Source: Daphnia pulex (lineage: Eukaryota; Arthropoda; Branchiopoda; Diplostraca; Daphniidae). Taken from it: a DNA stretch of 64,000 nucleotides. The stretch lies in NCBI RefSeq assembly GCF_021134715.1, contig NC_060019.1, positions 2,046,001-2,110,000 on the forward strand, read 5' to 3'. The notes below the pieces were generated by a model. That model was given only the letters and a program-made list of their open reading frames with translations, was not told the origin of the DNA and did not search any database. The first letter of the stretch is position 1. Every line of letters begins with the position of its first letter. This document shows positions 3,001-58,689 of the stretch, one piece after another. A program made the position numbers and the translations under genes.

Positions 3001-4269
3001 CAGTCGACCGGCCTCAGCCGCCGAGTTCACAGAGAACTTGTCAATATTTCCAGAAATGAACTGTTGTTTAGGCGAATTAAATACGAGATTATATTGCTTG
3101 GCTTTTTTCTCGTTTTCTTGCAGAGGAGGTGCTCCGTAACCTTTCAAATAAAATTAGAAATTGTAAAAATTCAAGTTATAAAATGTCTAAATTAAAATAC
3201 TGTTTGCAGGAAGATCTGGACAGCAAGCTCCCGGACCGCCATCGGCTAAGGCGCAGCCCGCGTCAGGAGTGGCTAAAACGAGATCGTACCATACAGCGCA
3301 GTCTTTGACCGGCCGGCATTTCGACTCTAATCCGCCAACTGCCGGACAACTGCTGCTGAAAGAAGAATTTGGAGAAGAGAAGTCAAAATCCCTGGATGGC
3401 ACGTAACCACACATGCCACCGTTGATGGGTGTACGGGGAGTATTCAACGAGGTCTTTTTTAGGTAACAGTTCCCATCGCTATGGCGGAAGTGGTTGCATT
3501 CGGGATTGGCAACGCACAGGCCGCCGCATTGCTCTCCGGTAGCCTCGATTTGCCCGATGTCGTTGCCGTAAAAATCGCAGTTGAGAAGCCACTTGACGCC
3601 ACCCTCTCCGGAATTCCAAACGTCCCGAGGTGGTGATTCTGGTACATGATGGTAAATTATACTGTAACGATTGATCAATAAAATAAATACAGGAAACGTC
3701 AAATTACCGGATTTAAACGGGAGATAGCCGCACACGCCACCTCTGGCGGGGGTACGAAAAGTAGTTAACGGTAATGTCTTCAAGTAACAGTAGCCATCGT
3801 CAGTGTAACGAAAATGGGTGCATTTGGGGTTGGCAACACAGAGGCCTCCGCAATTTTCGCCGGAACTCGGCAACCGCTCCAAATCGTTTCCGTAATAATC
3901 GCAATTGAATTGCCATTTGACGTTTCCGTCGCCAGTGTTCCAATTCTCTTTGGCGTTTCTTGCTGCTTGACAGCAAATAGCGTCTCCAATCGTAAGATTA
4001 TCGCAAGCTTGGCCGTCAATCAAGGACGGATTGATTTTGTACAGAGCCTCTAGATCGATTCCGCAAGAGATGGCAATCTCCGAGCAGGTATCCCCACTTT
4101 TAATCGCTTGACAATTTCGGTCGGGTTGGGCGTCAGCACTTAGAAGGAAAAGACATAAGACACTAGTGATGGGCAGCTGTAGGGCCTAATTATTAAAAAT
4201 ATAAATATTTTACCGTATGATTACGTAAATAGAACAGAATTTTTAAAATAAACTTACTGTGATTTTCAT
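1..4269 (-). CDS. LysM / apple-like / animal heme peroxidase, 16 exons, C-terminus outside window
   Basis: Secreted heme peroxidase of the animal (peroxinectin/chorion peroxidase) superfamily, expected to oxidise substrates with H2O2 outside the cell. Exons I can join in frame (minus): 4258-4269, 3708-4185, 3201-3638, 2828-3140, 2535-2755, 2431-2476, 2218-2345, 1966-2159, 1690-1909, 1273-1621, 1053-1209, 899-983, 747-835, 485-683, 318-420 and 242 to beyond base 1. All junctions are GT/AG and keep phase. Order: signal peptide starting MKITALQLP; LysM ([14 protein letters not shown], ending AICC); two modules of about 75 residues with W-N-[TS]-G-[DE]-G-x-V-K-W and conserved Cys; then the peroxidase domain. 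Distal His lies in QFIDHDFT and proximal His in FRFGHTLI. Past the peroxidase C-terminus ([12 protein letters not shown]) a third W-N-T-G-type module begins and runs off the window. No frame break seen. Family call is firm; physiological substrate unknown. Confidence 0.9.
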
Positions 4270-4620: not shown

Positions 4621-5060
4621 TAAGTCAGGCCAATATTTAAATTACGTAATTAGATGGCGCCAGAATCTGAGGAAAGCGTTGGTTATGTAAAGACTTCCGC
4701 CTTTACATTAAAGTTTACTAATTTAATATTTCACCAATTGAACTATTTTTATTGAGTATTATTCGGAAAAACATTTTACATTTGATCAACATGATTACTA
4801 ATTTGAAATAATTTAAATTTGGTTTTCCCAACAGATTGAACTTTCAGTCGTCAGGCCAGTATTGAAATTACGTAATAGGTATAGATGGCGCCAGAATCTA
4901 ATGAAAGTGTTATGTAATCATTGACTTCCGGATTTAAATTAAATTTTACTTATTAAATATTTAACTGTTTAAACTATTTTTTTATTGAATAATATTCGGA
5001 AAAACATTTTACATTTGATTAACACAATTACTAATTTGAAATCATTTAAATTTTACTTTT
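4620..5060 (+). repeat. Two tandem copies (~220 bp) of a block upstream of the MIF4G-like gene
   Basis: The stretch 4,620-4,838 is repeated at 4,848-5,060 with moderate divergence. Shared landmarks are the GTCAGGCCA start, AGATGGCGCCAGAATCT, GACTTCCG, ATTCGGAAAAACATTTTAC and a TAATTTGAAAT end. A single copy of the same block lies at about 47,970-48,190, in the same place relative to the second MIF4G-like gene. It is therefore part of the duplicated unit and may hold that gene's promoter. Confidence 0.75.
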
Positions 5061-5186
5061 AGGACCGTTTAAACTGGGAAAAATGGGGATGCCACTGCTG
5101 CTAGTCAGACGAAAGGTTACTTAAAGGAGACCGAAGACTTCTAAAGTAAATCGAATTTCACAGATCAAAACTTGAATTGAGCAACC

Positions 5187-6272
5187 ATGTCTTCCATCAA
5201 CATGATTATTTCTCTCGTCTCTGTCTCTACTGCTGTCATCTTTGCCGGTCTCTTCGCCAGTTGGTGCGTTCGCACAATACGCACATTGATAAAATCTCCA
5301 TCCAAATCGGAGCTGAAACTGCAAGGATTACCAGTACAACCGACCCACAAAGATGGCCAACCCGAGTCGATGAGATTCCAACGTCGAATCCAATCCACAA
5401 TGGCGGCGTTCATAGAAAACGGAATGGACGATGAAGTGGCACCTCTTGTCGTCTCTCGTTTGGAATGGTGCAACCAAATCAACCGCTATCTGGACATGTT
5501 GAAGAATACGCCAGAGTCAATCGAGAGTGTGGCGAATGGCATCGAGGTCCTGATGAATTACCACCAACTTCATCGATCGGAAGCGGAACAAGACCTCGTC
5601 GATGCCATTTTCAGCAGAGCTTTGAAAAACGGAAGCATTTCTCACCTTTACGCCAAACTGTTGAAGCGACTGAGGAGCGGTGACCAGAAAGGCTGGACAC
5701 AAAACATCGTCCGTCTCTTGTTCCAACTCGCCGTCGAGGAATTCAACCGGCCGCTTGACAGTGACGATGGAAATGACAAGTCGAGACTCGAAAAATTCAA
5801 CAACGTCAAACTGATGGCCGCCATTTTGAAGAGAGAAATGCCCGGAGTGCCGGACGGTTGGATCACAGACTGTGCCGAGACTTTAATCTACCGTCTCGAG
5901 ACCGGAGTCACTGAAGAATCGGTTAAGCAACTCTGCCTCTTCCTGACGACGCTGCTCATCGCTGAACCCGGAGAAAATTGTGATTCGATTACCCCGACCC
6001 GACAGAGACAATTGCTGACCTGCTTCGAGGCTCTGGAACGAGCGGCAACTCCACCCAAAGTCCCTCAACAACCGGACGTGAAAATACAGAAATCGAATGC
6101 AACGACACAGACGTTGAAACCTGAGAGCGGCGAGAGCGACACGGACACTTCTACGGACGAGTCGGACACGGAAGAATATGAGCCGGGCCCGGATTCAGAG
6201 ACTAATGGCCTTCTGGAACCTGCTGAAATCCGCACGAACTCGGCTTCTGCCTCTGACAAACGGATGAATTAG
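5187..6272 (+). CDS. Intronless membrane-anchored MIF4G-like protein, copy A (361 aa)
   Basis: Single-exon ORF starting at the ATG in GCAACCATG. Residues 8-32 form one hydrophobic helix followed by basic residues (CVRTIRTLIKSPSK), read as a signal anchor. Residues about 65-290 are helical. The blocks HLYAKLLKRLRSG, VRLLFQLAVEEFNRP, FNNVKLMAAILKREM and VKQLCLFLTTLLI match, in order and spacing, the helical repeats of MIF4G domains (eIF4G, PAIP1, CTIF). The tail (about 300-361) is acidic and rich in Ser/Thr/Asp/Glu. Compared with the copy at 48,316-49,392 this one ends earlier, because an AAG there is TAG here, and it has a longer acidic insert. MIF4G domains bind eIF4A or cap-complex partners; a membrane-tethered form is unusual. 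Intronlessness suggests a retrocopy origin. The MIF4G call is by eye and needs a profile search. Confidence 0.65.
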   Translation: MSSINMIISLVSVSTAVIFAGLFASWCVRTIRTLIKSPSKSELKLQGLPVQPTHKDGQPESMRFQRRIQSTMAAFIENGMDDEVAPLVVSRLEWCNQINRYLDMLKNTPESIESVANGIEVLMNYHQLHRSEAEQDLVDAIFSRALKNGSISHLYAKLLKRLRSGDQKGWTQNIVRLLFQLAVEEFNRPLDSDDGNDKSRLEKFNNVKLMAAILKREMPGVPDGWITDCAETLIYRLETGVTEESVKQLCLFLTTLLIAEPGENCDSITPTRQRQLLTCFEALERAATPPKVPQQPDVKIQKSNATTQTLKPESGESDTDTSTDESDTEEYEPGPDSETNGLLEPAEIRTNSASASDKRMN

Positions 6273-7487
6273 AAGAAACTGGATAATGCGTAAACTTAAA
6301 CTGAGCAAAGTTCTGATCGTACAATTAATTTCTTTTTGTCTTCAATGTAATACGTTTGAAGCTATGGATAAATTACAAAAAGGCTTTTAAAAATTTGTTT
6401 TCTGATTAATATTTTCTTACCATCCACCATTTGATTATTATTTTTTAAAAGTTATAAAATCTTCTTATTTTCCCTTTAAAAATTAACAAACAATATGCAG
6501 CCGTAAATTTTAGCTAAGCTGAAGCATGATGGGTATGGAGAGATTATCTAATGGCATGGTATTGGTATGGGTAAGGGTATTATCTTATTTGTTAAGTTTG
6601 ATGGGAATTTTCTAGTAAAATCACTGACCTGAATCAGTTAGACAATTTGTTTAACTCGCATGGCAAGTGAGACGCTTCCTGAATCCTGATTCAGAAAATC
6701 CAGAAGTTCTTTATTGGGAGTAATGTGACGAAAGCGGACGAAAGGAAATGAATAAAATTGAGCAACTCATTGCGAAATTATGTGCCTGCTAGTTGCCACG
6801 GCAACACGTCGTGAATTTTATTTTGATTGCAATGGCATATTCATTCTCACGGATTAACTTTGAAGGGGGGAAATCCAGTTTGAAAACAAACATGGTTGAT
6901 GAAGGACGCGGCTGTGATTAGGTAATCTGAAAAGTGAAAACTAAAGTGGAGAAAAAGTTACCAACACTCTGGTTCCGCGTATGGATTCGTGTGCTTTCAT
7001 ACACTATTTTAGATTAAACGTGTTGAAAGAACCCTTAAATAACACGCGACGTAAAACATTTTTGGTTCGAATTACATCCGTCTGAAAGTTTAATCCACGA
7101 GTAATAGCGCACGATTGCGATCTCGATAACTGTTTGGGAATTAAAGGAACCACATCGGAGGCGATTAAACAAAGAGGATTAAATAGCTATTAATTTAAAG
7201 AGTGGGTGGTAGGAGGGGGTCAATCAAAATAAAGAAGGACGGGTGTCGACTGTTATCCATATTTCTTCCCGGATACGCAAAAAAACTTCATCAAATTTTT
7301 TAAATCAAGAAAATCAAAAATTTTGCTATCGGTATTAGGTCAATTTGTGCGATGTGTCAAATGTTTGTTAGTGACACGTAATTTAATCACGTCAGTGTTC
7401 ACCGGGCACGTCGTTGACAACCTTTCGGTTGCTCAATAATCCCGCGCAACAATCAATAACCCCATTAGTCTGACATCATCGCATACA
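6273..7487. other. Downstream flank of copy A, duplicated at 45.3-46.0 kb; no gene seen
   Basis: No supported gene. The stretches 6,340-6,670 and about 7,240-7,487 match 45,290-45,640 and 45,640-46,080 respectively. Landmarks are AAGCATGATGGGTATGGAGA, GGTATGGGTAAGGGTATTAT and CACCGGGCACG. The part between, about 6,675-7,240, is absent from the other copy, so it is an insertion here or a deletion there. Confidence 0.6.
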
Positions 7488-34647: not shown

Positions 34648-34789
34648 AATTGTCGGTAAATTCGTTCGACATTGACTGTGTGCGACCTCTATATTTAGCT
34701 GCTTCTCAGCAAACAAAAAAGAACAACAAAACGGGGGATAGGTGAGAGATGGCGCTCAGGTGGGCGGATCTCCCCCTTAGACACGTCAG
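34648..34789 (+). repeat. Left inverted terminal repeat of DIRS element
   Basis: Starts AATTGTCGGTAAATTCG and ends CCTTAGACACGTCAG. About 120 bp of it is the near-exact inverse of the right repeat. Confidence 0.9.
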
Positions 34790-34819
34790 ATCTCTTTTCG
34801 CTCTCGTTGTGCAAACATC

Positions 34820-37612
34820 ATGTCGGATCCTGATCAGTCAAGCGACTCTAGCTCAAGTTCTAGTAGTTCAGGCTCCGATTCATCAAGAGGGGGAGGCGTA
34901 AAGAAATTTCGTCTCTCAAGTGAAAAGTCAGCTACCTTAGCCGGCTGGGTTGTATCGGGTTTAGATGACACTCGAGCGAAAAGTGCTAGAGAGGCCTTTA
35001 GACCCAAGCTAAAGAAGAACGCCGACCTGCTGATCAACCCCAATCTAGATGAGGCTTTCTACATCCGGCTGAAGGCAGTTAAGTCATCTTCGGCAGCTAA
35101 GGCCAACATCGACCCAATCGAGAAGATCTACAGAAACCAAACCTTCAAGATCCTTGACTTAGTCAAGCCCATCATGTTTCTGGCGAGTCGAATCAAGAAA
35201 AAGAAGAAATCCCGAGCCGACGCCAAGGCGGTTAAGACGGCTCTGAAGCTCTGGGCGGTGGTGTACCACGACATCACGAACGCGCGACGCCGCAACATTC
35301 TGGCCCAAATCTACCCACAGAATATCGGGCTACTGGACGACAAGGCTATCCTACCAACCGGCGGAGAACATCTCTTCGGTCCGAAGTTTACCCAGGCCCT
35401 GGTCGAGCAGGTGAAGACACTGAACGCTCTTGAAACCGCGGGAGCCCCTCGCGCGTCTGGATCCAGCGGCGGTCATGGTCAACGCCAATCGGGTCGCAGT
35501 TTCAGCAATCCACCGGCATCTTCAGGCGGTCGCTATTCAAATCCCGGATCCCGGTATGTCCAAACTATTCTTGCCTTTCACGATTCTTTTGGGGGTCGCA
35601 TAGCGCGTTTTGCGTCTGAATGGTCAAAACTTACTCTCGACCCGTGGATTTTATCGACGGTGTCTCAAGGTTTACAACTAGACTTTATTTCTGAGCCCGT
35701 CCAATTTTTTATTCCACCAAACGCCTGCATGGACACGCATCAATACGATTGCTGCAAGCAGGAAGTGAATTCACTCATAGAAAAAGGAGCGATTGTTAGG
35801 GCCCGTGATCAAGGTTTCATCTCCAGCATTTTTCTAATTCCGAAAAGAACAGGAGGTTATAGGCCCATCATTAACCTGAAAGCACTTAATCGTTTTCTGT
35901 CTTATCAAAAATTCAAGATGGAGGGCATTTCATCAGTGAGACATACGATTCGGGAAGGGGATTGGCTGACCAAGTTGGACTTGAAAGATGCATATTTGAC
36001 GGTCCCTATTTTTGAAGGCCATCGGAAATTCCTTCAGTTTAAATGGGAGGGCGTTTTATTCGAATTCGTGTCCCTCCCCTTCGGTTTAAGCTCCGCGCCA
36101 TGGGCGTTTACCAAGCTTTTAAGGGTAGTGGTAGCCTTCCTGCGGAAGAACGGCCTCCGTCTCGTGATCTACCTGGATGATATTCTAATCGCGGCTAGCT
36201 CCCAGTCGGAAGCCAAGGTCGCTGTGAAAAGAGTAAGATCGCTGCTAGAGTCCCTAGGCTTTGTGATTAGTGACGAAAAATCATCGGAAGAGCCCTCTCA
36301 GAAATTAGAATACATAGGCCTGTTCATCGACTCAGTCAAAATGAAACTAATCTTGCCGGACAGGAAGAGACTTGACATTTTTCGCCTTTGTAAATCTGCG
36401 CTGAAGGAACCTCAAATTTCCCAAATCGATCTGGAAAAGATTATCGGAAATTTGAATTGGGCAGCAGCAGCCGTTAACTTTGCCCCAGCCCATTTTCGCG
36501 GTCTTCAGATCCTCCTGAACTCCCGGCCAGAGGGCCGTCTGATTAGGTCAAGTGAATCCTTTACCCTGTCAAAAGAGGCGCGTAAAGACCTACTTTGGTG
36601 GCTTTCAGAGGCAGATTTTTTATCTGGCCGACCGCTCATTTTTCCGGCGCCGGATCTGTCCATCGCGTCGGATGCATCCTTATCAGGATGGGGGGCAGTA
36701 TGCAAAGATTTGAGAACGGGGGGGCCATGGACAAAGGACGAAAGCAAGGAACACATCAATTTTTTAGAGCTCCTGGCAGCACTCAAGGCCCTTCAATGCT
36801 TTACAGCAACGGCCCACGACACCACAATCGAATTAAGGATGGATAACACCTCAGCTGTCAGCTACGTGAACAGAATGGGGGGTTGTAAATCAGCGAACCT
36901 TTGCAGTATCGCATTGGAAATTTCGAAATGGTGCGAGTGCCGTAACTTGTCTCTTTGTGCCGTATTTGTGCCCGGCGTAACAAATATTCTGGCCGACGCA
37001 GAATCTCGGAGGCCTCTGTCGTCGGGGGACTGGAAACTGGACCCGCAATCGTTCAAAACAATTCAGGCAATTTGGGAAGTAGAAGTGGATCTCTTCGCGA
37101 GCTCATGGAACGCTCAGTTACCGATTTTTGTCAGCCGGTTTCCGCAACCGGGAGCCTGGAAAACAGACGCTCTGTCGCTGAGCTGGAAGGCTCTCGCGGG
37201 ATATTGTTTCCCCCCCTTCAACTTGATTCCCTTCTGTCTGACGAAGGTTCGGCAAGAACAAGCCGAGATTGTACTAGTGACACCCTACTGGCCCAGCCAA
37301 TGCTGGTTCCCGTCCTTGATGGAACTAGCAACGGACATCCCGCTCCTTCTCTTCCCATCCAAGTCGTTGCTGACGTCCCCGTTGGGGGAGGGTCATCCAT
37401 TGACGAAAGACGAGTCCATCCGTCTAATCGCCTGGCGGCTCTCCGGAGTTGTCTGGAAGAGCGAGGCTTTCCGGAAAAAGTTATCGAGCTCATATTGGGA
37501 GCAACTCGTTCAAATACACACTCTGCATACCAGTCCGCTTGGGTCGCTTGGAGCAGTTGGTGTAGTCAACGGAACCACAATCCCCTGTCGTCTGGCGTCA
37601 AGGAGGTATTAA
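34820..37612 (+). CDS. DIRS polyprotein: Gag-like, reverse transcriptase, RNase H (930 aa)
   Basis: Starts at ATG 34,820, 30 bp after the left terminal repeat. Residues 1-230 are Gag-like: a Ser-rich start, basic stretches, a Gly/Ser-rich end. RT follows from about residue 325: SIFLIPKRTGGYRPIINLK, WLTKLDLKDAYLTVPI, FVSLPFGLSSAPWAFTKL and the catalytic VIYLDDILIAA (YLDD). RNase H has SIASDASLSGWGAV, INFLELLAALKAL, ELRMDNTSAVSYVNRMGG and VPGVTNILADAESR. The last part (SSWNAQLPIFVSRFPQPGAW) is typical of DIRS/Ngaro proteins. The frame is open throughout. It overlaps the recombinase ORF in another frame by several hundred bases. Confidence 0.92.
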   Translation: MSDPDQSSDSSSSSSSSGSDSSRGGGVKKFRLSSEKSATLAGWVVSGLDDTRAKSAREAFRPKLKKNADLLINPNLDEAFYIRLKAVKSSSAAKANIDPIEKIYRNQTFKILDLVKPIMFLASRIKKKKKSRADAKAVKTALKLWAVVYHDITNARRRNILAQIYPQNIGLLDDKAILPTGGEHLFGPKFTQALVEQVKTLNALETAGAPRASGSSGGHGQRQSGRSFSNPPASSGGRYSNPGSRYVQTILAFHDSFGGRIARFASEWSKLTLDPWILSTVSQGLQLDFISEPVQFFIPPNACMDTHQYDCCKQEVNSLIEKGAIVRARDQGFISSIFLIPKRTGGYRPIINLKALNRFLSYQKFKMEGISSVRHTIREGDWLTKLDLKDAYLTVPIFEGHRKFLQFKWEGVLFEFVSLPFGLSSAPWAFTKLLRVVVAFLRKNGLRLVIYLDDILIAASSQSEAKVAVKRVRSLLESLGFVISDEKSSEEPSQKLEYIGLFIDSVKMKLILPDRKRLDIFRLCKSALKEPQISQIDLEKIIGNLNWAAAAVNFAPAHFRGLQILLNSRPEGRLIRSSESFTLSKEARKDLLWWLSEADFLSGRPLIFPAPDLSIASDASLSGWGAVCKDLRTGGPWTKDESKEHINFLELLAALKALQCFTATAHDTTIELRMDNTSAVSYVNRMGGCKSANLCSIALEISKWCECRNLSLCAVFVPGVTNILADAESRRPLSSGDWKLDPQSFKTIQAIWEVEVDLFASSWNAQLPIFVSRFPQPGAWKTDALSLSWKALAGYCFPPFNLIPFCLTKVRQEQAEIVLVTPYWPSQCWFPSLMELATDIPLLLFPSKSLLTSPLGEGHPLTKDESIRLIAWRLSGVVWKSEAFRKKLSSSYWEQLVQIHTLHTSPLGSLGAVGVVNGTTIPCRLASRRY

Positions 37613-38455
37613 ATTTCCTTTCGGATTATTTTCATTCCGGTAAAAGCTACAGCACGGTAAATGTAGCCCGTTCAATGCTCTCATCCACCCTAAGCTTATC
37701 GTCAGAGAATCTAGAGGTCGGAAGGAACCCCCTGGTCGTTAACCTTATGAAAGGAGTTTATAATGAAAAGCCACCTGAGCCCAGATATACGAATACATGG
37801 GACCCTTCTGTAGTATTGACACACTTAGACGTATCCGCAAGCGCCCAGGACAGCCTCTCAATCTTGCAGCTAGCCCGCAAGACGACCACTCTTCTTGCCC
37901 TCACCTCGCTTTCAAGATGCGCCGATCTAGCTGCCATCCAGCTCCATTCCATCAGCTTCTCGGAAGGAGGAGTAAAGTTCGTTTTGAGCCGCCCAAGGAA
38001 AGCCCAACATTCCGGCCCGCTTCACGTGCTGTCAGTCGGAGCTTGGCACCAGAAACCCGCCATTTGCCCAGTGGCCTGCATGCGGAACTATATGGACCGC
38101 ACGGCTCCGCTTAGGAACGACTCAAATAGCGAGTCACTCTTCATCGGTTCAAACAAGCCCCATAAACCCGTATCAAGCTCGACGATTGGACGCTGGATCA
38201 AGGAGCAACTCAAAGAAGCAAGTATCGATACGTAAGTTTTTTCGGCCCATTCAGCAAGAGGAGCAGCCGCTTCTAAGGCGATGAATAGAGGCGTTCCAAT
38301 CCAATCGATCCTGAATTTAGGCCACTGGAGCCGGGAATCTACCTTTGCTAGGTTCTATAAAAGAACCGTGCCAGAAAATACCGATTTGGTGGGCGCATCC
38401 ATCTTACGCAGCCCAGAAGTTTCCAGCGAGCGTCAAATTCAACTCTCCGACTAGT
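36955..38455 (+). pseudogene. DIRS tyrosine recombinase with in-frame TAA at 38,233
   Basis: Lambda-integrase-type recombinase, expected to insert the circular DNA. The open frame begins near 36,955 inside the RT/RNase H ORF; I place the domain from about 37,400. The N-terminal core-binding part includes SAYQSAWVAWSSWCSQRN. The first catalytic Arg lies in LTSLSRCADLAAIQ. Directly before the HxxR motif a TAA at 38,233-38,235 interrupts the frame. After it the same frame continues with the HxxR box, a G-H-W box and the Tyr-containing FARFYKR, to TAG at 38,453-38,455. A single base change could explain the stop. Start codon and expression route (overlap, reinitiation) are uncertain. Confidence 0.85.
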
Positions 38456-38491
38456 AGTAGCCGTTGACCAGAGGGTATCTTGCTTTTAAGA

Positions 38492-38602
38492 CACAGTCAA
38501 TGTCGAACGAATTTACCGACAATTGGTAAATTGTTCGAGCGAGCTTTAGCTCGCGATGAACAATTGGGATTGTTGGGGGAATGGAGTGAAGACATTGACT
38601 GT
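38492..38602. repeat. Internal complementary region of DIRS element
   Basis: The left half is the inverse of 34,648-34,680; the right half is the inverse of 39,046-39,126. They meet at a shared AATT. Short inverted arms (GCGAGCTTTAGCTCGC) lie inside. Confidence 0.9.
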
Positions 38603-38934
38603 CTTCTAACCACCCATCCCGCCCACGTCATTCCCGTTTTTCATTATTATTTTTATCTTATATTTAATACCGAGCTATTTCTAACTATTTAAATACTTAA
38701 CTCGAATTAGGTGCATCCATTGATTGTCGACGGCCCACTAATTCTCCTTCATTTTATCTTTTTACTAGATACAACAACGGTGGCCAAAGATCAAATCACG
38801 GCCGCGGCGCAGCCAATCCCGCCAATAAAGGCGACGAGAACAACAACAACAACAGAAAATAGACTATTTGAACCGTGGATCGCTTTAAACTCTTTCCGTT
38901 AAGCCAGACCCACAGTTATTATATGCTTCCAATG
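38603..38934. other. DIRS spacer between the internal region and the right ITR
   Basis: No recognised domain. A 63-codon frame at 38,711-38,902 has no motif and is probably not coding. Confidence 0.4.
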
Positions 38935-39126
38935 CTGACGTGTCTAAGGGGGAGATCCGCCCACCTGAGCGCCATCTCTCACCTATCCCCCGTTTTGTTG
39001 TTCTTTTTTGTTTGCTGAGAAGCAGCTAAATATAGAGGTCGCACACAGTCAATGTCTTCACTCCATTCCCCCAACAATCCCAATTGTTCATCGCGAGCTA
39101 AAGCTCGCTCGAACAATTTACCAATT
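38935..39126 (-). repeat. Right inverted terminal repeat of DIRS element
   Basis: Begins CTGACGTGTCTAAGGGGGAG and ends AATTTACCAATT. It is longer than the left repeat because it adds a unique outer end matched only by the internal complementary region. Confidence 0.9.
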
Positions 39127-44552: not shown

Positions 44553-45039
44553 TTCTGACTTGGAGTTCGTATTCGTAGGTTAATACAGAACGTATAATTT
44601 GTATAGGAGCGGAACACTCCCTACTTATAACCTCGCTATCCCGAAATTGTTCAGCAAAGCCCTGTCGCCACTGATTTTGCTACTTTTTTAAATTAATTGT
44701 TTAACGAAAATTGTTTTAAATCAGATAATATCAACACTTACTATTTTAGCAATAATGTTCATTCATATTTAAAAGCATTAATCTATTTCAACTTAATCTT
44801 TATCTAAAATTAGTTTTCGTTGTTTCGGCGATGCAAGAAGTCCTGTACTGTGGTCACTCTAAAGATTGCCGCAAAAATAAGTGGCGCCAGGTGTTTGCTG
44901 TGGCACTCTTGGGATAGCTGATAGATAAGTATGGGCAATCCTCCTATTCCATTTCCAATTTATACGTTCTGCATAAACTTTCACCGTAAATACTGAAGGT
45001 GAAATAATTAATTATTTTTCGTCGGTGTTTTATTTAACA

Positions 45040-45200
45040 ACCGGCCGTTACAATGCAGAAGCTAGAACCTGACAACGAGGAAACGGAAACGAAATGAGAA
45101 ACTGGCTCGTCGCAGTCAGAGTCCCCCACAGTCTCGGACACGGACAAATATGAGTCCGGGCACGGATTCACAGATCGACCCGGAACCTGCTGAGAAATAG
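45040..45200 (+). pseudogene. Relic of the MIF4G-like gene C-terminus, copy B
   Basis: Encodes a degenerate acidic tail (LEPDNEETETK, stop, then SESPTVSDTDKYESG and a PEPAE-like end) resembling the last 60 residues of copies A and C. It is followed by the same downstream flank as copy A. The N-terminal and MIF4G-like parts are missing. Confidence 0.6.
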
Positions 45201-45289
45201 GAGATCTAACAGCCAAATTAGATCTTTCATTTTAAAGGTAAATCAGAAAAAAACCACACTCTTTTTTTTTTTTCGTTGATTTAATTTCA

Positions 45290-46080
45290 ATATAATATGT
45301 TTGAAGCTGTTTCGATGAATTACAAAAAATCAGTTTTAAAAAATGTTTTTCTTAATAAAATTTTTTTACCATCCATCGATGTTTTTATAACTTAAAAAAA
45401 TTATAAAATCTTCCTATTTTCTCTTTTGAAATTAACAAACAGTATATAGCCGTACATTTGAGCTAAGCTTGGAGCTTAGCCGAAGCATGATGGGTATGGA
45501 GAGATTATCGAATGGTATGGTTTTGGTATGGGTAAGGGTATTATCTGATTTGTTACAGCATGATGGAAATTTTTTAGTAGAATCATTGACCTGAATCAGT
45601 TAAACAATTTGTTTAACTGGTATTGCAAGTGAGACGCGTGTCGACTGTTCTCGATCTTTCTTCCCGGAAGCTGAGATAGTCAGATACCTCTTAACCCGCT
45701 CTTAACATCGATGAAGGATGTCGAGGAAAAGAAAAAAGTCACCAATTTATAGGAACTTGTATTTATAGAATAATTGTGGCCGAAAAAAAAATTACCGTAA
45801 AATTACCATACCTACACGAAAAGTAGAGAAAAAAATCCCACAAAGAAATGTCTGCTTCATCAAATTTATTAAATCAAGAAAATCAAAAATGTTTCTATCG
45901 GTATTAGGTCAATTTGTGCGATGACTTGAATGTTCTTTAGTGCCACGTAATCGAATCACGTCACTGTTCACCGGGCACGCCGTTGACACAACCATTGGGT
46001 TGCTCAATAATCCCGCGCAACTGAGCCCATTCGCATCTTTTCTGCCCATTCGGCATAGTCTGACATCATCGCATACACGG
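45290..46080 (+). repeat. Duplicated downstream flank of the MIF4G-like unit
   Basis: Homologous to 6,340-6,670 and 7,240-7,487 (AAGCATGATGGGTATGGAGA, GAATCACGTCACTGTTCACC). It continues into SINE copy 3, exactly as copy A continues into SINE copy 1. The SINE was therefore present before the duplication. Confidence 0.7.
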
Positions 46081-50933: not shown

Positions 50934-52202
50934 TACACAGCAGCGGTAGAATACTTACCTTAACATACTTTAGTGGGCCAGGATTACTTACAAGACGAAA
51001 CTACTTACGAGCTTAACATACTTAAATAGTTTTTTCATACTTACATTTTGTAAGTAACGAGTAAGCATGTAAGTATGTGCCTCCAACATACTTACTTGAA
51101 TAAAAGAAAAGCCTTCTGTAGGAATCGAACACGGGTCTCTCGCATCACAGTCAGATGCTGATCCGCTGTGCCATTCTTGATATGATTTAACTAATTAAAT
51201 AACCGTTATGAATCAACGGGGGGGTTTAGGACTTAGAGATTTTTATGTCCAAACATTATATTCAATTTTCTCTCCTAAAGCGGCGAGCATGTGCCCTTAT
51301 TCATTTTTTTCACAAAAATGATTTACAGGAAAGCTGCTTTAAACTCGGTACTACCAGTTCCTTCAGTAGATATAAATAGGGCAGCAAATTTTTCCTACAA
51401 TTAATGAAAAAAAGGAGTTATATTCCTTAAACAAGTGGTTTACATGTATTCTAGAGTTCTACCTGAACGATGGCCATATTTCTTGAATAATGCTCATGGA
51501 TGGACTGAGAAACAAAGAGCAGGGCCTCGTAGGTCAGGAAATATCTTTGTCGCAACATAAGTAGCAAGCCAGCCTCCCATTCAAATTCACTAAACGCAGC
51601 ACCATGAGTGAAAAGGAGGGATTCAATTTCACGATGAGCAGCAGGAACCAAATTTTGCTGGCCAAAATGTTGGGGTTGTTGTTCGTGATCAAAATCATGC
51701 CTATCTTCAGCTGATGATTGTTCAAGACCAGCCCTGACGCCATCAGTTGTGTTACTACTAGCAATAACAACATCTTCAATGGACGTGGGATCACTAGCCT
51801 CGTCGACTAACAAGTTGAATCCAGTAGTCGATATATATAGGCTAAGCTCAATCAAATTTCAAAAGTGAGCAAAAGTACAAGTACAAAGTACAAGTATGTT
51901 ATTAGCTGTTTAAGTATGTATACGACGAAAATAAGTATGAAAAATAGGTATAAGTATGTTCGTCCAATATACTTACAAATTTACAATACTTACAAATAGT
52001 TGAACATACTTACAACTCCCTAAACTACTTGATATTTAAAACAGATAGTGCTTGCAAGTATGAAAATGAGTTGTAAGTACGTTAAAAAATATTTCAAGTA
52101 GGAAATTTTCCAAATTAAGTATGAAAAAAGCCCTACTTGACAAATTCAGTACTTTTAACCTACTAACATACTGGAAATTAAGTATGTTACCGCTGCTGTG
52201 TA
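50934..52202. mobile_element. Non-autonomous hAT-like foldback element in a sushi-gene intron
   Basis: Terminal inverted repeats TACACAGCAGCGGTA at both ends. Arrays of AAGTATG/CATACTT motifs fill both subterminal regions, as in hAT elements, where they bind transposase. The centre has a minus-strand frame (51,451-51,855; FEWEAGLLLMLRQRYF) without a recognised domain and a tRNA-like segment. I find no 8-bp target duplication. Confidence 0.75.
51115..51185 (-). repeat. tRNA-like segment inside the foldback element
   Basis: Minus strand: GGCACAGCGGATCAGCATCTGACTGTGATG-type body ending in B box GTGTTCGATTCC. It resembles a tRNA 3' half with an A box. Probably a SINE fragment nested in the element; not called as a tRNA gene because the 5' arm does not pair. 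Confidence 0.45.
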
Positions 52203-55200
52203 CCCCACGGCCAGCTGTTGATTATTGAGCTCTTGATTGTCCGAAATCCAATTGGTCAACTGGACAGTTCCATGTTCCGGATCTCTCAAAGGCGGACAAG
52301 TAATCAGCTGGCAACTAGGCGGGCGATCGCTCCACGATTTGTCCGTCAGACACGTTACAGTGGCCGAACCGACCAGGTTGCAAAACCCGGTTTGCATTCG
52401 AAACGAATGGTGGAGCCCGGAACGAAACCACCTACTGTCCAGGATCCATGTTCCAGGGCTTCCGGTACTGCACAAACGACCGGATCACAGGCAGGATCTT
52501 CTCCCGACCACCGACCGTTACTCAAACATGTTCTAGATTCGACTCCTAAACATAAGAAAATTGAAACAAAGTCAAATTTGCAACAGCTTAAAATTTAAAA
52601 TAATTAATTTCATTTCATTTGCGTACCAGAAAGGCGATGTCCGGTCTGACAGGAGTAGGAAATCGTATCACCGACTCCTGTGCCGCGGACGACGGCAAAT
52701 CCATTGTCGATATTCGGAGGATCGCCGCACGAACGAGTCGCACAGACGGGCATTGCTGGATGCGACCAAGTGCCGTCCGGCCTGCAAGTGATTTGCTCCT
52801 CCCCATTCAGTTGATATCCTTCCTGGCAGCTGAAAGTAATCCGGCTGTCCAGAATTGAGCTCGTTCCGCTGACAGTTCCATGTTTCGGCACCTGGACATC
52901 TGGGCAGCGAATGGGTTGACAAACTGGAATCTTCTGCTCGTCCCATTGTCCATCATCGGCGCAGGTTAGTGCAGACATTTGGGGGTCTTCCAGCACATAG
53001 CCCAGCCGGCAACTGAACTGGATCGTCTCGCCAAACCCGTACGAACTTTTCAGCGGTTGCTTGAATTTGAAATCACCGATGACTGCTTTCCCAGTTGACA
53101 GTTGTTTCGGAAGAGAACACAGCTGAGCTTCACATTCCGCTTTTCCTTTCCAAATGCCGGCCGGACCACAAGTCAAATTGGATCCGAGTAATCGAAAGCC
53201 GGGATCGCAACGGACTATCGCCGTGATGATATCCGGTCAAATGACTTTCGATTGGATTTGACTATTCGGTGGGATCGGCGGAGACTCGTACGGCCACGGA
53301 ACACAAGCCGGAAACGGATGATTCCAGTCGCCCGTCGACGTGCATTCGGCCAACGCGCTGCCCACCAAATCGTATTCGTCTTGACAGGAGAATTTCAATG
53401 CCATTGGGCGCTGTTGGCGGCCCGTCTTCTGTCCATCCGACGGCGGATAGACGGGCGTGATGATTCCGTCTTCCAGTATGTCGACAGACAGACAAATGGC
53501 TCGGACGCACGTCGGTATCTGATCTTCCCAATCTCCCGAAAAAGTGCACGCCACCCGGTCTTCGCCCGTCATGCGGAATCCGAAATCGCATTCGTATTTG
53601 ACGGAATCCAAATTTGAATATTCCTTTTTCCCGTTTCCGTCCAGTTTGCCGGTCTTGACGACGGGCGGTTGAGGGCACCGAATCAGCTGACACGTGGGCG
53701 TTTCCGAGACATTTCATTTGCCCGTCTCCAGACATTTGGCCACCTTGGGGTTGTCGTCGGTCAGCTGGTAGCCTTTTTTGCATCCGTAGTGGATGATTTG
53801 ACCAACCATGGCCGCTTCCTCCGTTTCGTTGACGTTGGTCACTTCATTCTGAACGGGACGAGATGTTTACCCATTCTGAGGGATGACGGCCGGCGGGCAG
53901 GAGACTCTGGAACAGACGGGCGGTTTGGAAGACCAAGAGCCGTCGGCCAAGCAGCGCCTCTCCACGACGCCGGAATCGTTGTCGGATTTGACAATTACGT
54001 AACCTCTTCGGCAGGTGTAAACCAAAATGTCGCCGTAGGTAGGTAGGTAGACTTCCGGATCTAATCGAACATCCGCTTGTTTGAGTGAAACAACGAAGTT
54101 GGCAACGAGGCCCGGATTGGGACACTCCACCGGGCGACAGGTGGGCATTATTCCGCTCCAATTTTCGTCATCTTCGCAGGACAAACGTTCCGGGCCGTCT
54201 AATTCGTATCCCGGATGGAAAACGAATTGAACGACTGAACCGTAAATGTTCTCCTCGGCCCACGTGACAGTCCCGTGCTCCATGGTGCTGGGCAGACGCT
54301 CGCAAAATATCTGATGGCACGACGGCTCTTGGTCCGTCCAATCGCCGGATGGCAAAGAGGATTGTTCCCGCGCTCCGACTAATTTGTATCCTTCCTCGCA
54401 GTCGTAGAGAATGACAGATCCGGTGCCGAGACTGGTGGCCGATCCGCCCACTTCGAATCCCATGTATCCGTGCTCAATGATGTCCGGGATGGAACACGTT
54501 CGAGGAACGCATTTGGGCTTGGCTCCGCCGATCCATTCGCCATCGCTTCCGCACGTCCTCTGCTGCGATCCGCTCAGCACGAATCCTTGGTCGCAGCGGA
54601 AGAGCGCCTTCAATCCGAAATTGGTGGACGTGAAAGTGACGGACCCGTTGGCGGGAGTTTCCGGCTCGCTGCACACGTCTTCCTGGCACCGGAACGGCTC
54701 GTTGGAATTGGATTCCGCGTCGCTAACGCTCCAGGTCCCGTCCGAATTGCAGACCAAAGTTGCCGGCCCCGAAGTGGCGCCGGCCTGGAAGCCCGTGTCG
54801 CATTCGTAGGTTACCAGTTGGCCCGTTTCGAAACCTTCGACAACAATTGTCCCGTGATCCGGGTTGTCCAATGCCGGACACGTGATTCCGGAAATCGATG
54901 CCAGAGTCCGGCATTAAGGTAGACCCTGGGGCATCCAGCCGACTGTTCCAGCACATCTTCGTCGTGTTCCACCCTCCAGCAGGAAGCCCTCGTTACACGA
55001 GTAAACCACTTCAGCACCTGTCGATTAATCGATTCAATTCAAATTTTAAAAAATAAGGAATGAATTCTTATTTGTCTACTCTGATTGGACTTTTAAAATA
55101 TTCACAGACTGGATGGACACTGTTCTTGCCCGTGTAGAAAACGGTTTGGGCGTTGACCATTTCACCGTCAACAGCTGACGTGTAGACCCAGGCGCCATTG

Positions 55201-57542
55201 TCGATCGCATCCGGCGGAGGACACTCTTCCGGCAAGCATTCGGGAATGTTGCCCGACCAGGAGCCATCTTCCAGGCAAACTAGGAGGTCGGATGACGTGC
55301 TGTGGAATCCATCTTGGCAAGCGAAATTCAGCTCCTCTCCGGCGACGAACGGTTCGGCGGCCGATTGGGTCCCGTTGCAAACGAGCGGGGCTTCGGCGCA
55401 AGCGACGGGCAGACACTGAGGGGCGACACCCCATCGATTATCGGCTCCGCATTCGATCCAGCTGCTGGCGCCCATCAGTTTGAAGCCGGAATAACACGTA
55501 ACCGGGGCTTTGCTTCCGAAAGTCTTTCTCTTCCGCATAGACTCCGCCGTTGTCGACGGTCGGCGGGGAGCCGCAGTCGACTGGCATGCAGACGGGCAGG
55601 GTGGCTTGTTTGTTGCGATCCAGCCAAGTGCCACTCTCCGTGCATTCGAGCTCGGCCGGACCGAAATGCTCGAATCCAGACTGACAGACGTAAGAGGCCA
55701 CCGATCGGACACGGTCGTTATCTGGGCGAGAGAGCTGGACAGTGGCGTGATCAATTTCCGGAGGCGTTCCGCACTGGATGGGCACTCATTTGGAAATTTG
55801 GCCGATCCAGAATCCTTCGTGACTGCACTGGACCTTGGCCGAAGATTCCAGCTGGTAACCAAAGAGACAAGTGAACGTCAAGATGGAGCCGGGCACAAGA
55901 AAGTAGGGCAGATCTTCCGGCCACTCTGTTGGTGACGATGCCGTGCTCGACGTAAGGTGGGCGTGTGCACGCCAGAGGCTGGCAAACCGGAAGAACGTCG
56001 TCCCATTGCCCTTCGTCTTGGCAGGTCAAGGAATACGTTCCATCCAGCCGGAAGCCGGTCGAACACGGAAAAGTAATAAGGTCGCCAACGGCGTAAAATT
56101 CCTGCGACACGGGCGGCTCAATCTGGGAGCCGTTGACGGGCGGAATCGGTGGCTCACAAGTGACCGGAACGCATTCAGGCGGATAGCCGCTCCATTGGCC
56201 GTTTCCTCGCAAGTGCGTAATCCGTCGCCGGACAGGCGGAAGCCTCTCGTGCAGTTGTAGGAGACGGTGTTGTCGTAGACGAAATTGGTTCTGTTCACCA
56301 ATCAGTTGAGAATGTATCCGGGAAATCCGCAACTGACCCGTTGGCATTCCGGATCGGGACCGGACCATCCGCCGTAGACGAGACAAGATCGACGAGACGA
56401 CGGAGTCGAGAGGAGGCCCAGTTCGCATTCATAGACGGCCTCGTTGCCTTCGACTTTGACTCCGCCGTGTTGCGGCGGAATTGGATCGGAGCATCCGCGG
56501 CAAAAAATCGACTCCTCCACTCGAATTCCGCGGCGCAGTCCGTGCTTGAAATCGGCCCAGGTGATGAGGTTGCCACGATATTGGCTGCTGGACTCGCTGT
56601 CCAGCTGGTGGCAGGAGAGGGTCAGGCCGGCGATTTGTTGGTCGTCCAGGACGGAATCCCACAGTTTGACTCCGTACAGCTGGCCGACGAAGGATTCGGC
56701 ATTGCTGAACCCTCCGGCGCGGACGTCCTGCTCCTGGCCGAGGATGACGGTCCCGTTGGGATGGATCGACGAATTGCTGGCCAATCCGAATCCCTTGTCT
56801 TTGAGCTCTCCGTCCGAGTAGATGCGCCACTGTCCGTCCGGTGAATTCCACGTGGCGCAAATCAGGTGCCAACGCCCGTCGTTGGCCGTCACGTCCGTCA
56901 CCACTTTGGCGTCGTTGACGTAGAGAACGAAGCCGGAACAGTCCGTCAAGGTCAGCGAATTGGCTTCGTCGTCGGTGGCGTAAGAGAAGACGGCGCCGTA
57001 GTTCTGCTGGTCCGTCGTCTTGATCCAGGCGCACATGGTCATCTGTCTGAGCGGCCTGGCGTTCGTCCGAAGTCCGCCCTCCCAGACGGCGTAGTCCAGT
57101 TGGCCGGCGCTGGTGAATTCTAAACTGAAATCGGAATTGACGGCCGTGTCGCAAGTCGATCTGACCACTCCAGGCGGGCACAAACAAGCAAAGGATCCCA
57201 GTCGGTTGACGCAGGTGCTTCCGGCTGCGCACGGTTCCGGCAGGCATTCGTCAACGTCGTTCTAGCAAAGTGGGCCGTCGTAGTTGACCGTTGAGCGGCT
57301 GGTAGAATCCGACCGGACAGGAGAAACAGGGGGCCAATCCCGTCTCGGAAACCAGTCCTCGTGGACAGACGGACTTGCAGTCGTCCAGACGACGGGCGCC
57401 TCGGCGCCATGTGGTCGAACCCGACGGGCAAGGAAGGCAGTTTCGCTGCGAGGACTCGGTCTGGTACGTTCCTTGCGGGCAAGTGCTGCACCGTTCCAGT
57501 CCGGTTGTAGATTAACTTCCAGCCAAACATTGAGCTGAGCAT

Positions 57543-58230
57543 TCAAAAAAGAATTATCATTTTGCTGATTGATTTCATGGCGGCAAGGATGATTTCTTGG
57601 TCGTCAAATTTTCTGGATGCACTTTGCTTGAAGAAATTAAAGTTAAAAACACTTCTGAATGTGAAAAACATTCAACAATTTCAATTTTGAAACATTGGTT
57701 GTTATTTGTCGTCAAATAATGTCAGTGTTGTTCCTCCAAGAAAATCAAAACGTTTAAAATTACAAACAGCAAAGTAAAACTATTGAATTTACTTACATAA
57801 ACTATTAAACTTAATGCTGTAGCATGAAACAATTCAATAAGACTTACAGGAATATATGAAATTTAAAGTTTACCACTTTCTACTATCAACGTGATTGTTT
57901 TTCACATTGACATGGTTGCCTATTTTTCTGCAGGAACAACACTGGAACGATTTCCTAACAAACAACTCATGTTGGATTCACAAAAACTTAGTTTATCAAA
58001 TGATTTCCATTAACTTTTATCTCTAAAAGCATAGAGAAAATAGGAAATTTTGTGTTTTCCGAGATGTCTTTGCTATGGTGAAATCTATTGCAACGAAATA
58101 TTTCGTTGCGCTAACTAGCCATTTTGGCTATTGCAACGAAATCTTTCGTTGCACCACGATGATATGATGATCCCATGACCACCTGTCCCCAGAGAATATG
58201 GTTTCGAGAAGTTTAAAAGTTTGTTTGTTG
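57543..58230. other. Intergenic; no gene, one foldback
   Basis: AT-rich. The palindromic CAACGAAATATTTCGTTGCGC foldback lies at 58,085-58,155 and is related to 25,985-26,110. Confidence 0.5.
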
Positions 58231-58249
58231 TTGTTTGACACTTTAAACT

Positions 58250-58390
58250 GTTTGTAGCAGACGACATAGCCATCTAGCGGATTAACATTGCCATAGGGGA
58301 ACGGGTGGGGTAGTCGGATAAGGCGTCAGTTAGTAGTACTAATGTACTAACAACTTGACCCCGAGTTCGATTCCACATCCGGGTACATCC
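58250..58390 (+). repeat. tRNA-derived SINE, family 2 (best copy)
   Basis: Head AGCAGACGACATAGCCATCTAGCGG; A-box-like GGGGTAGTCGGATAAGGCGTCAGT; B box GAGTTCGATTCC then ACATCCGGGT; A-rich tail. Relatives lie at 20.3 kb, 21.0 kb and, inverted, 27.7 kb. Confidence 0.75.
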
Positions 58391-58689
58391 ATAAAAAAAA
58401 GAAAAACAATTAAAAGAGTCTTTGACCGTAGCGTAATTGCTGCAGTATGGGGTCAGTCTCAAGACGATACCTGTGCGCTTCAGGTGAGATTTGACTGCAG
58501 CATGCTCTACTCAGGATTTCAAGGGGAATTCTGGGCTGCAATGGGTCCTTAAGTGTAAATTGCCCAAATGACGGTCTGCGATTGCTCACGCAGACGGTCC
58601 CACCCCCCACTGACGGGGAAGCGAGTGGCGGAAAAAAACCGAGCCAAGGCGAATCTATATAAGATAGAAAAGCAAGCTTATCAGCTCGC

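Follow-up and report, generated by a model that had tools for sequence, protein, structure and literature searches.

Two intronless genes in a 64,000-nucleotide stretch of the Daphnia pulex genome (contig NC_060019.1, here C3, positions 2046001-2110000; the window) encode a predicted N-terminal membrane anchor followed by a MIF4G domain, and belong to a recently multiplied family under coding constraint. The original prediction, made from the sequence alone, had described these genes, c1 and c2, as near-identical and intronless. Both frames were open end to end, with an ATG start, a stop and zero internal stops upon translation, and their proteins were 97% identical. For the family, intronless describes the coding frame; a 5′ untranslated region could still hold an intron. 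To our knowledge, known MIF4G proteins are soluble scaffolds. We tentatively favor a reading in which these single-pass membrane proteins would place a DEAD-box ATPase and mRNA on an organelle surface.

The family was delineated by protein search of the genome (13 contigs, 133.19 Mb), in which all counts are lower bounds. The window protein gave at least 11 matches, and a search seeded with member f gave identical places. Five copies form an array of ~120 kb on C3 (c1 at 2051187, c2 at 2094316, c3 at 2138436, c4 at 2155719, and c5 at 2169772). Outside the array lie d (C3:1217731), e on C5, and f and g, ~6 kb apart on C2. C10 holds a distant member, and C9 a fragment. Eight members (c1-c4, d, e, f, and g) have full-length frames with anchor and core, although g is almost without the tail; c5 has lost its first six codons. 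The recent multiplication that had been proposed is therefore borne out within this one genome, in a family larger than the two copies first noted. The C10 relative (locus L041, 3863-5569, minus strand) has a frame of 569-573 amino acids, carries a basic tail in addition to two or three hydrophobic stretches, and may be a diverged branch.

Assignment of the core to MIF4G was supported by both profile and fold. Pfam MIF4G (PF02854; curated cut-off 30.8 bits) matched residues 102-293 of c1 (32.4 bits, E 1e-7) and 102-294 of c2 (33.9 bits, E 3.3e-8), both above the cut-off. With the same program, e scored above it (35.2) and d, f, and g below (29.8, 30.2, and 25.0, respectively), while in the genome search d (31.3) and f (31.1) both exceeded it. 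The predicted core fold is a helical HEAT-repeat that matches solved MIF4G domains. The original assignment of the helical core thus holds, with neither a missing match nor a different fold. No other domain scored above its Pfam cut-off in the members scanned, and no RNA-binding domain did so in seven. NCBIfam, queried with c1 and f only, returned a best E of 0.43 for one query and nothing for the other; anti-phage models, queried with c1 only, returned nothing at E 0.01.

A five-member profile ranked eIF4G types first (eIF4GII/eIF4G, E 3.3e-4). The eIF4E-binding motif, YxxxxL followed by a hydrophobic residue, is absent ahead of MIF4G in eight of nine members; the sole match, at residue 95 of e, lies within the core region. 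As no such motif precedes the core, we regard the family as of the MIF4G kind and not as an eIF4G. Scores against the other MIF4G genes of the genome were weak (best 5.6e-5, in a small search space, to locus L009, which we take to be eIF4G2-like), so that they do not single out a parent gene. Viral relatives were also sought in a viral contig collection with the five-member profile; of 53 stretches matched with two peptide patterns, none was confirmed.

The N-terminal anchor of the original prediction was supported by hydropathy in both window genes, with the best 19-residue hydrophobic window at residues 6-24 and a Kyte-Doolittle mean of 2.27 in each. Basic residues directly follow the hydrophobic helix, within an Arg/Lys-rich stretch at residues 29-44, and the n-region is not basic. 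This hydropathy and charge pattern recurs in all nine close members, but in the C10 member the charge is opposite. The N-terminal segment is a good candidate membrane anchor, and a cytosolic core is a moderately confident prediction. The acidic tail stood in composition but not in conservation. After residue 290, c1 has 16 Asp/Glu versus 7 Lys/Arg and c2 has 13 versus 9, but the tail is the least conserved part of the protein, with one of 71 residues invariant among five divergent members.

These features suggest how the protein might work. The N-terminal helix of ~20 residues would act as an uncleaved signal-anchor, with Arg/Lys-rich residues 29-44 holding the remainder of the protein in the cytosol. 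A juxtamembrane segment between anchor and core, SKSELKLxGLP, would keep the helical-repeat MIF4G core near the membrane. If it behaves like the MIF4G domains of eIF4G, PAIP1, DAP5, CWC22, CNOT1, and Gle1, the core would bind a DEAD-box ATPase, either eIF4A or one of its relatives. The helicase and its mRNA could thereby be placed on the endoplasmic reticulum (ER) or mitochondrial outer membrane, where local translation would be tuned. The acidic Ser/Thr tail may be a regulatory, fast-changing part. eIF4G, PAIP1, and DAP5 are reported to bind eIF4A via MIF4G-type regions (PMC6262856). Combined with the anchor-MIF4G architecture and the AKAP1 precedent described below, this makes a membrane-docked helicase adaptor the most economical reading.

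Several observations weigh against this adaptor. Its anchor prediction depends on hydropathy, and the N-terminal helix in the c1 model (residues 4-34) has a predicted local distance difference test (pLDDT) score of about 43-55. A simplified insertion-energy sum was favorable in seven of ten members; the three unfavorable ones were c5, g, and the member on C10, whose charge bias is also reversed and which gave no Pfam match at E 0.1. Several MIF4G branches tied in the fold comparison, so the binding partner cannot be read from the fold, and a nine-member profile placed two designed repeat proteins above eIF4GII. Finally, the ratio of nonsynonymous to synonymous divergence (dN/dS) among the array, d, and e (0.73-0.84) is higher than one would expect of a core adaptor in translation.

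The main rival to the membrane-docked adaptor is a membrane-tethered decoy or antagonist, whose core would sequester an eIF4A-type helicase and so act as a brake on translation, either antiviral or sensitive to dosage, with multiplication and rapid evolution reflecting conflict. The presence of the helicase-docking domain type alone, together with fast evolution and recent gain of copies, is consistent with such a role. However, we have no known conflict partner, whole-gene dN/dS never exceeds 1, and helicase binding is itself a prediction; we consider the decoy possible but doubtful. An mRNA-metabolism adaptor from another MIF4G branch (UPF2, CNOT1, CWC22, or Gle1-like), working at the ER or nuclear envelope with some other partner, a DEAD-box protein or a deadenylase, appears rather unlikely given that eIF4G types lead the five-member profile and human eIF4G gives the best identities.

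Alternatively, the copies could be young duplicates of little if any function that are decaying into pseudogenes under relaxed constraint, a reading on which the coding sequences bear directly. Nei-Gojobori ratios were calculated for 36 pairs. All 35 pairs with changes gave a dN/dS below 1 over whole genes (0.30-0.84; 0.30-0.71 for array pairs), while c4 and c5 were identical over the compared part. Synonymous divergence did not exceed 0.036 between array copies; it reached 0.16-0.17 for d, 0.33-0.36 for e, and more than 1.2 for f and g. In six pairs, all 38 gaps were multiples of three, a count that includes one terminal truncation of g and array-pair gaps that are not independent. The original prediction had named a ratio near 1 together with missing transcripts as an argument against function; the ratios stayed below 1, and indels kept the frame. 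In a simple neutral simulation, the probability of staying stop-free was 0.03 for d and 0.001 for e, and the long branch of f was stop-free in 0 of 3000 runs. With corresponding values of 0.50, 0.11, and 0.12 for the last branches of c1, f, and g, an open frame is by itself weak evidence in these three. Array ORFs (open reading frames) are 98-100% alike, whereas the 345 bases upstream are 91-96% alike among c1-c4, which suggests either constraint or conversion centered on the ORF. Ratios as high as 0.84, the relics in the array, and the loss of the c5 start to a retroelement would suit decay. Set against the eight full-length frames, the in-frame indels, the improbably open frames of d and e, and the ORF-centered likeness, they leave pseudogene formation improbable.

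A secreted or lumenal protein, with the N-terminal helix as a cleaved signal peptide, is less probable again. Cleavage would be possible after residues 20 and 24 (IFA↓GL and LFA↓SW), and the protein has two N-glycosylation sequons. However, the lack of a basic n-region, the basic residues right behind the helix, the single long helix modeled with low confidence, and the cytosolic nature of MIF4G as a domain type make this very unlikely; the distribution of charges is as expected of an anchor that stays uncleaved, in answer to the reservation attached to the original prediction.

Features of the window (positions from its first nucleotide)
Feature	Position	Strand	Basis or remark
c1, intact intronless ORF, 361 aa	5187..6272	+	anchor, MIF4G core, acidic tail
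c1 predicted membrane-spanning segment, residues 6-24	5202..5258	+	hydropathy; model
c1 MIF4G core, residues 60-287, ten helices	5364..6047	+	Pfam; predicted fold
c1 acidic Ser/Thr-rich tail, residues 291-361	6057..6269	+	composition; pLDDT <50
c2, intact intronless ORF, 358 aa	48316..49392	+	architecture as c1
Unit common to c1 and array copies c2, c3, c4	4842..6401	+	ORF with ~345 bases upstream, 129 downstream
Relic, 5′ region of another copy, adjoining c1 upstream	4710..4842	+	81% to c1 upstream DNA
Decayed remnant (3′ end) of a further copy, upstream of c2	45036..45351	+	61% over 348 aligned positions
PAN-domain gene near c1	3187..4023	-	
Retroelement	34649..39126		RVT_1 domain; inverted terminal repeats
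Pentraxin/sushi gene	52201..58654		duplicated with c2

Flanking DNA indicates how the copies spread. An extent of ~3.4 kb is shared by c2, c3, and c4; the likeness of c2 and c3 continues through most of the next 9 kb, including the sushi/pentraxin gene, and c4 and c5 have additional downstream DNA in common. Segmental duplication gave rise to these copies. Close likeness of c1 to the rest is limited to 1.56 kb. Between the array, d, and e, likeness ends ~240-270 bases upstream and 130-170 bases downstream of the ORF, with AATAAA just before the downstream boundary in d and e as read off the flank alignment, in which no poly(A) tract was evident. These transcript-like boundaries and the AATAAA fit retroposition of a transcript. 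A query with the upstream DNA found nine places, all family loci save one on C9, where no MIF4G frame occurred in the 2.8 kb examined. The downstream DNA found 13 places: the array, one on C8, and four on C3 without the gene. On C8, what remains of a copy is its final 192 bases, and the place is taken as a segmental duplicate because a PAN-like frame beside it, recognized by eye, resembles that flanking c4.

The window retroelement, which we infer to be DIRS-like, has a second ORF without a Pfam match. Pieces of a second copy (C3:2167017-2169777) are 84-89% like it, and DNA matching the retroelement end abuts codon 7 of c5, interrupting that gene. The original suggestion that a mobile element might use the protein found no support: the narrow boundaries shared by the array, d (C3), and e (C5) could mark a cargo or helper gene, but they also fit transcript retroposition, upstream DNA matches only family loci and one C9 place, downstream pieces occur on C3 without the gene, the array arose by segmental duplication, and the one retroelement found beside a copy disrupts it. 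With the flanks of the dispersed copies compared with each other but not scanned for transposase genes, we hold this explanation to be barely credible. Two neighboring genes were also noted. A PAN-domain gene lies near c1, and a PAN-like frame lies beside the C8 remnant as noted above. The pentraxin/sushi gene has a 5-kb match of 98% identity next to c3, at C3:2142426-2147458.

A second multiplied intronless MIF4G family was found at loci L010-L015 (one each on C2 and C8, four on C7) and L016 (C3:4135831), the last with an internal stop. Frames span 987-1125 amino acids in five of six, with L014 shorter (668). They contain a coiled-coil-like stretch, an eIF4E-binding-like YDRAFLM motif (five of six), MIF4G at E about 1e-40 (all three scanned), and a C-terminal KH domain (all three scanned; GxxG in all six), with a weaker hydrophobic stretch at the start of most. 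We know of no described protein combining MIF4G and KH, and nothing on this pairing in arthropods was found in the open-licence literature. Both families might conceivably form a fast-evolving, lineage-specific set of membrane-rebuilt scaffolds that assemble translation on organelle surfaces, possibly specialized by sex, stage, or defense, but we hold this to be improbable.

A MIF4G domain behind a predicted membrane anchor is an arrangement that we did not meet in our searches. Open-licence literature on MIF4G, eIF4G paralogues, and Daphnia, available mostly as titles and abstract openings, yielded no membrane-anchored MIF4G protein, and the passage found for MIF4G in Daphnia concerned zebrafish mif4gdb only. 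If tethered, the family would offer a direct test of whether a DEAD-box helicase on an organelle suffices to switch local translation on or off, and since recent copies occupy several loci, old and new versions could be compared within one animal.

Among known systems, the middle domain of eIF4G/eIF4GII (MIF4G, HEAT-1) is alike in fold and in an alignable motif region, and human eIF4G has the highest identity of solved relatives (21-22%). The family differs in its added predicted anchor, in lacking the eIF4E motif in eight of nine members, and in missing a 27-residue insert that precedes the NIKF helix in eIF4G; its proteins are about a quarter the length of listed eIF4G1 chains (1310-1404 residues). 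The Gle1 C-terminal domain shows 8-12% identity. As far as we know, neither Gle1 nor PAIP1 nor DAP5/eIF4G2 has a membrane anchor of its own. The closest analogue in described role, as opposed to sequence, is AKAP1, whose N-terminal membrane targeting resembles the predicted anchor. AKAP1, targeted by its N-terminus to the mitochondrial outer membrane or ER, is reported to bring mRNA there for local translation (PMC11668292, PMC12650760). AKAP1 does so with KH and Tudor domains, where the Daphnia family would use MIF4G.
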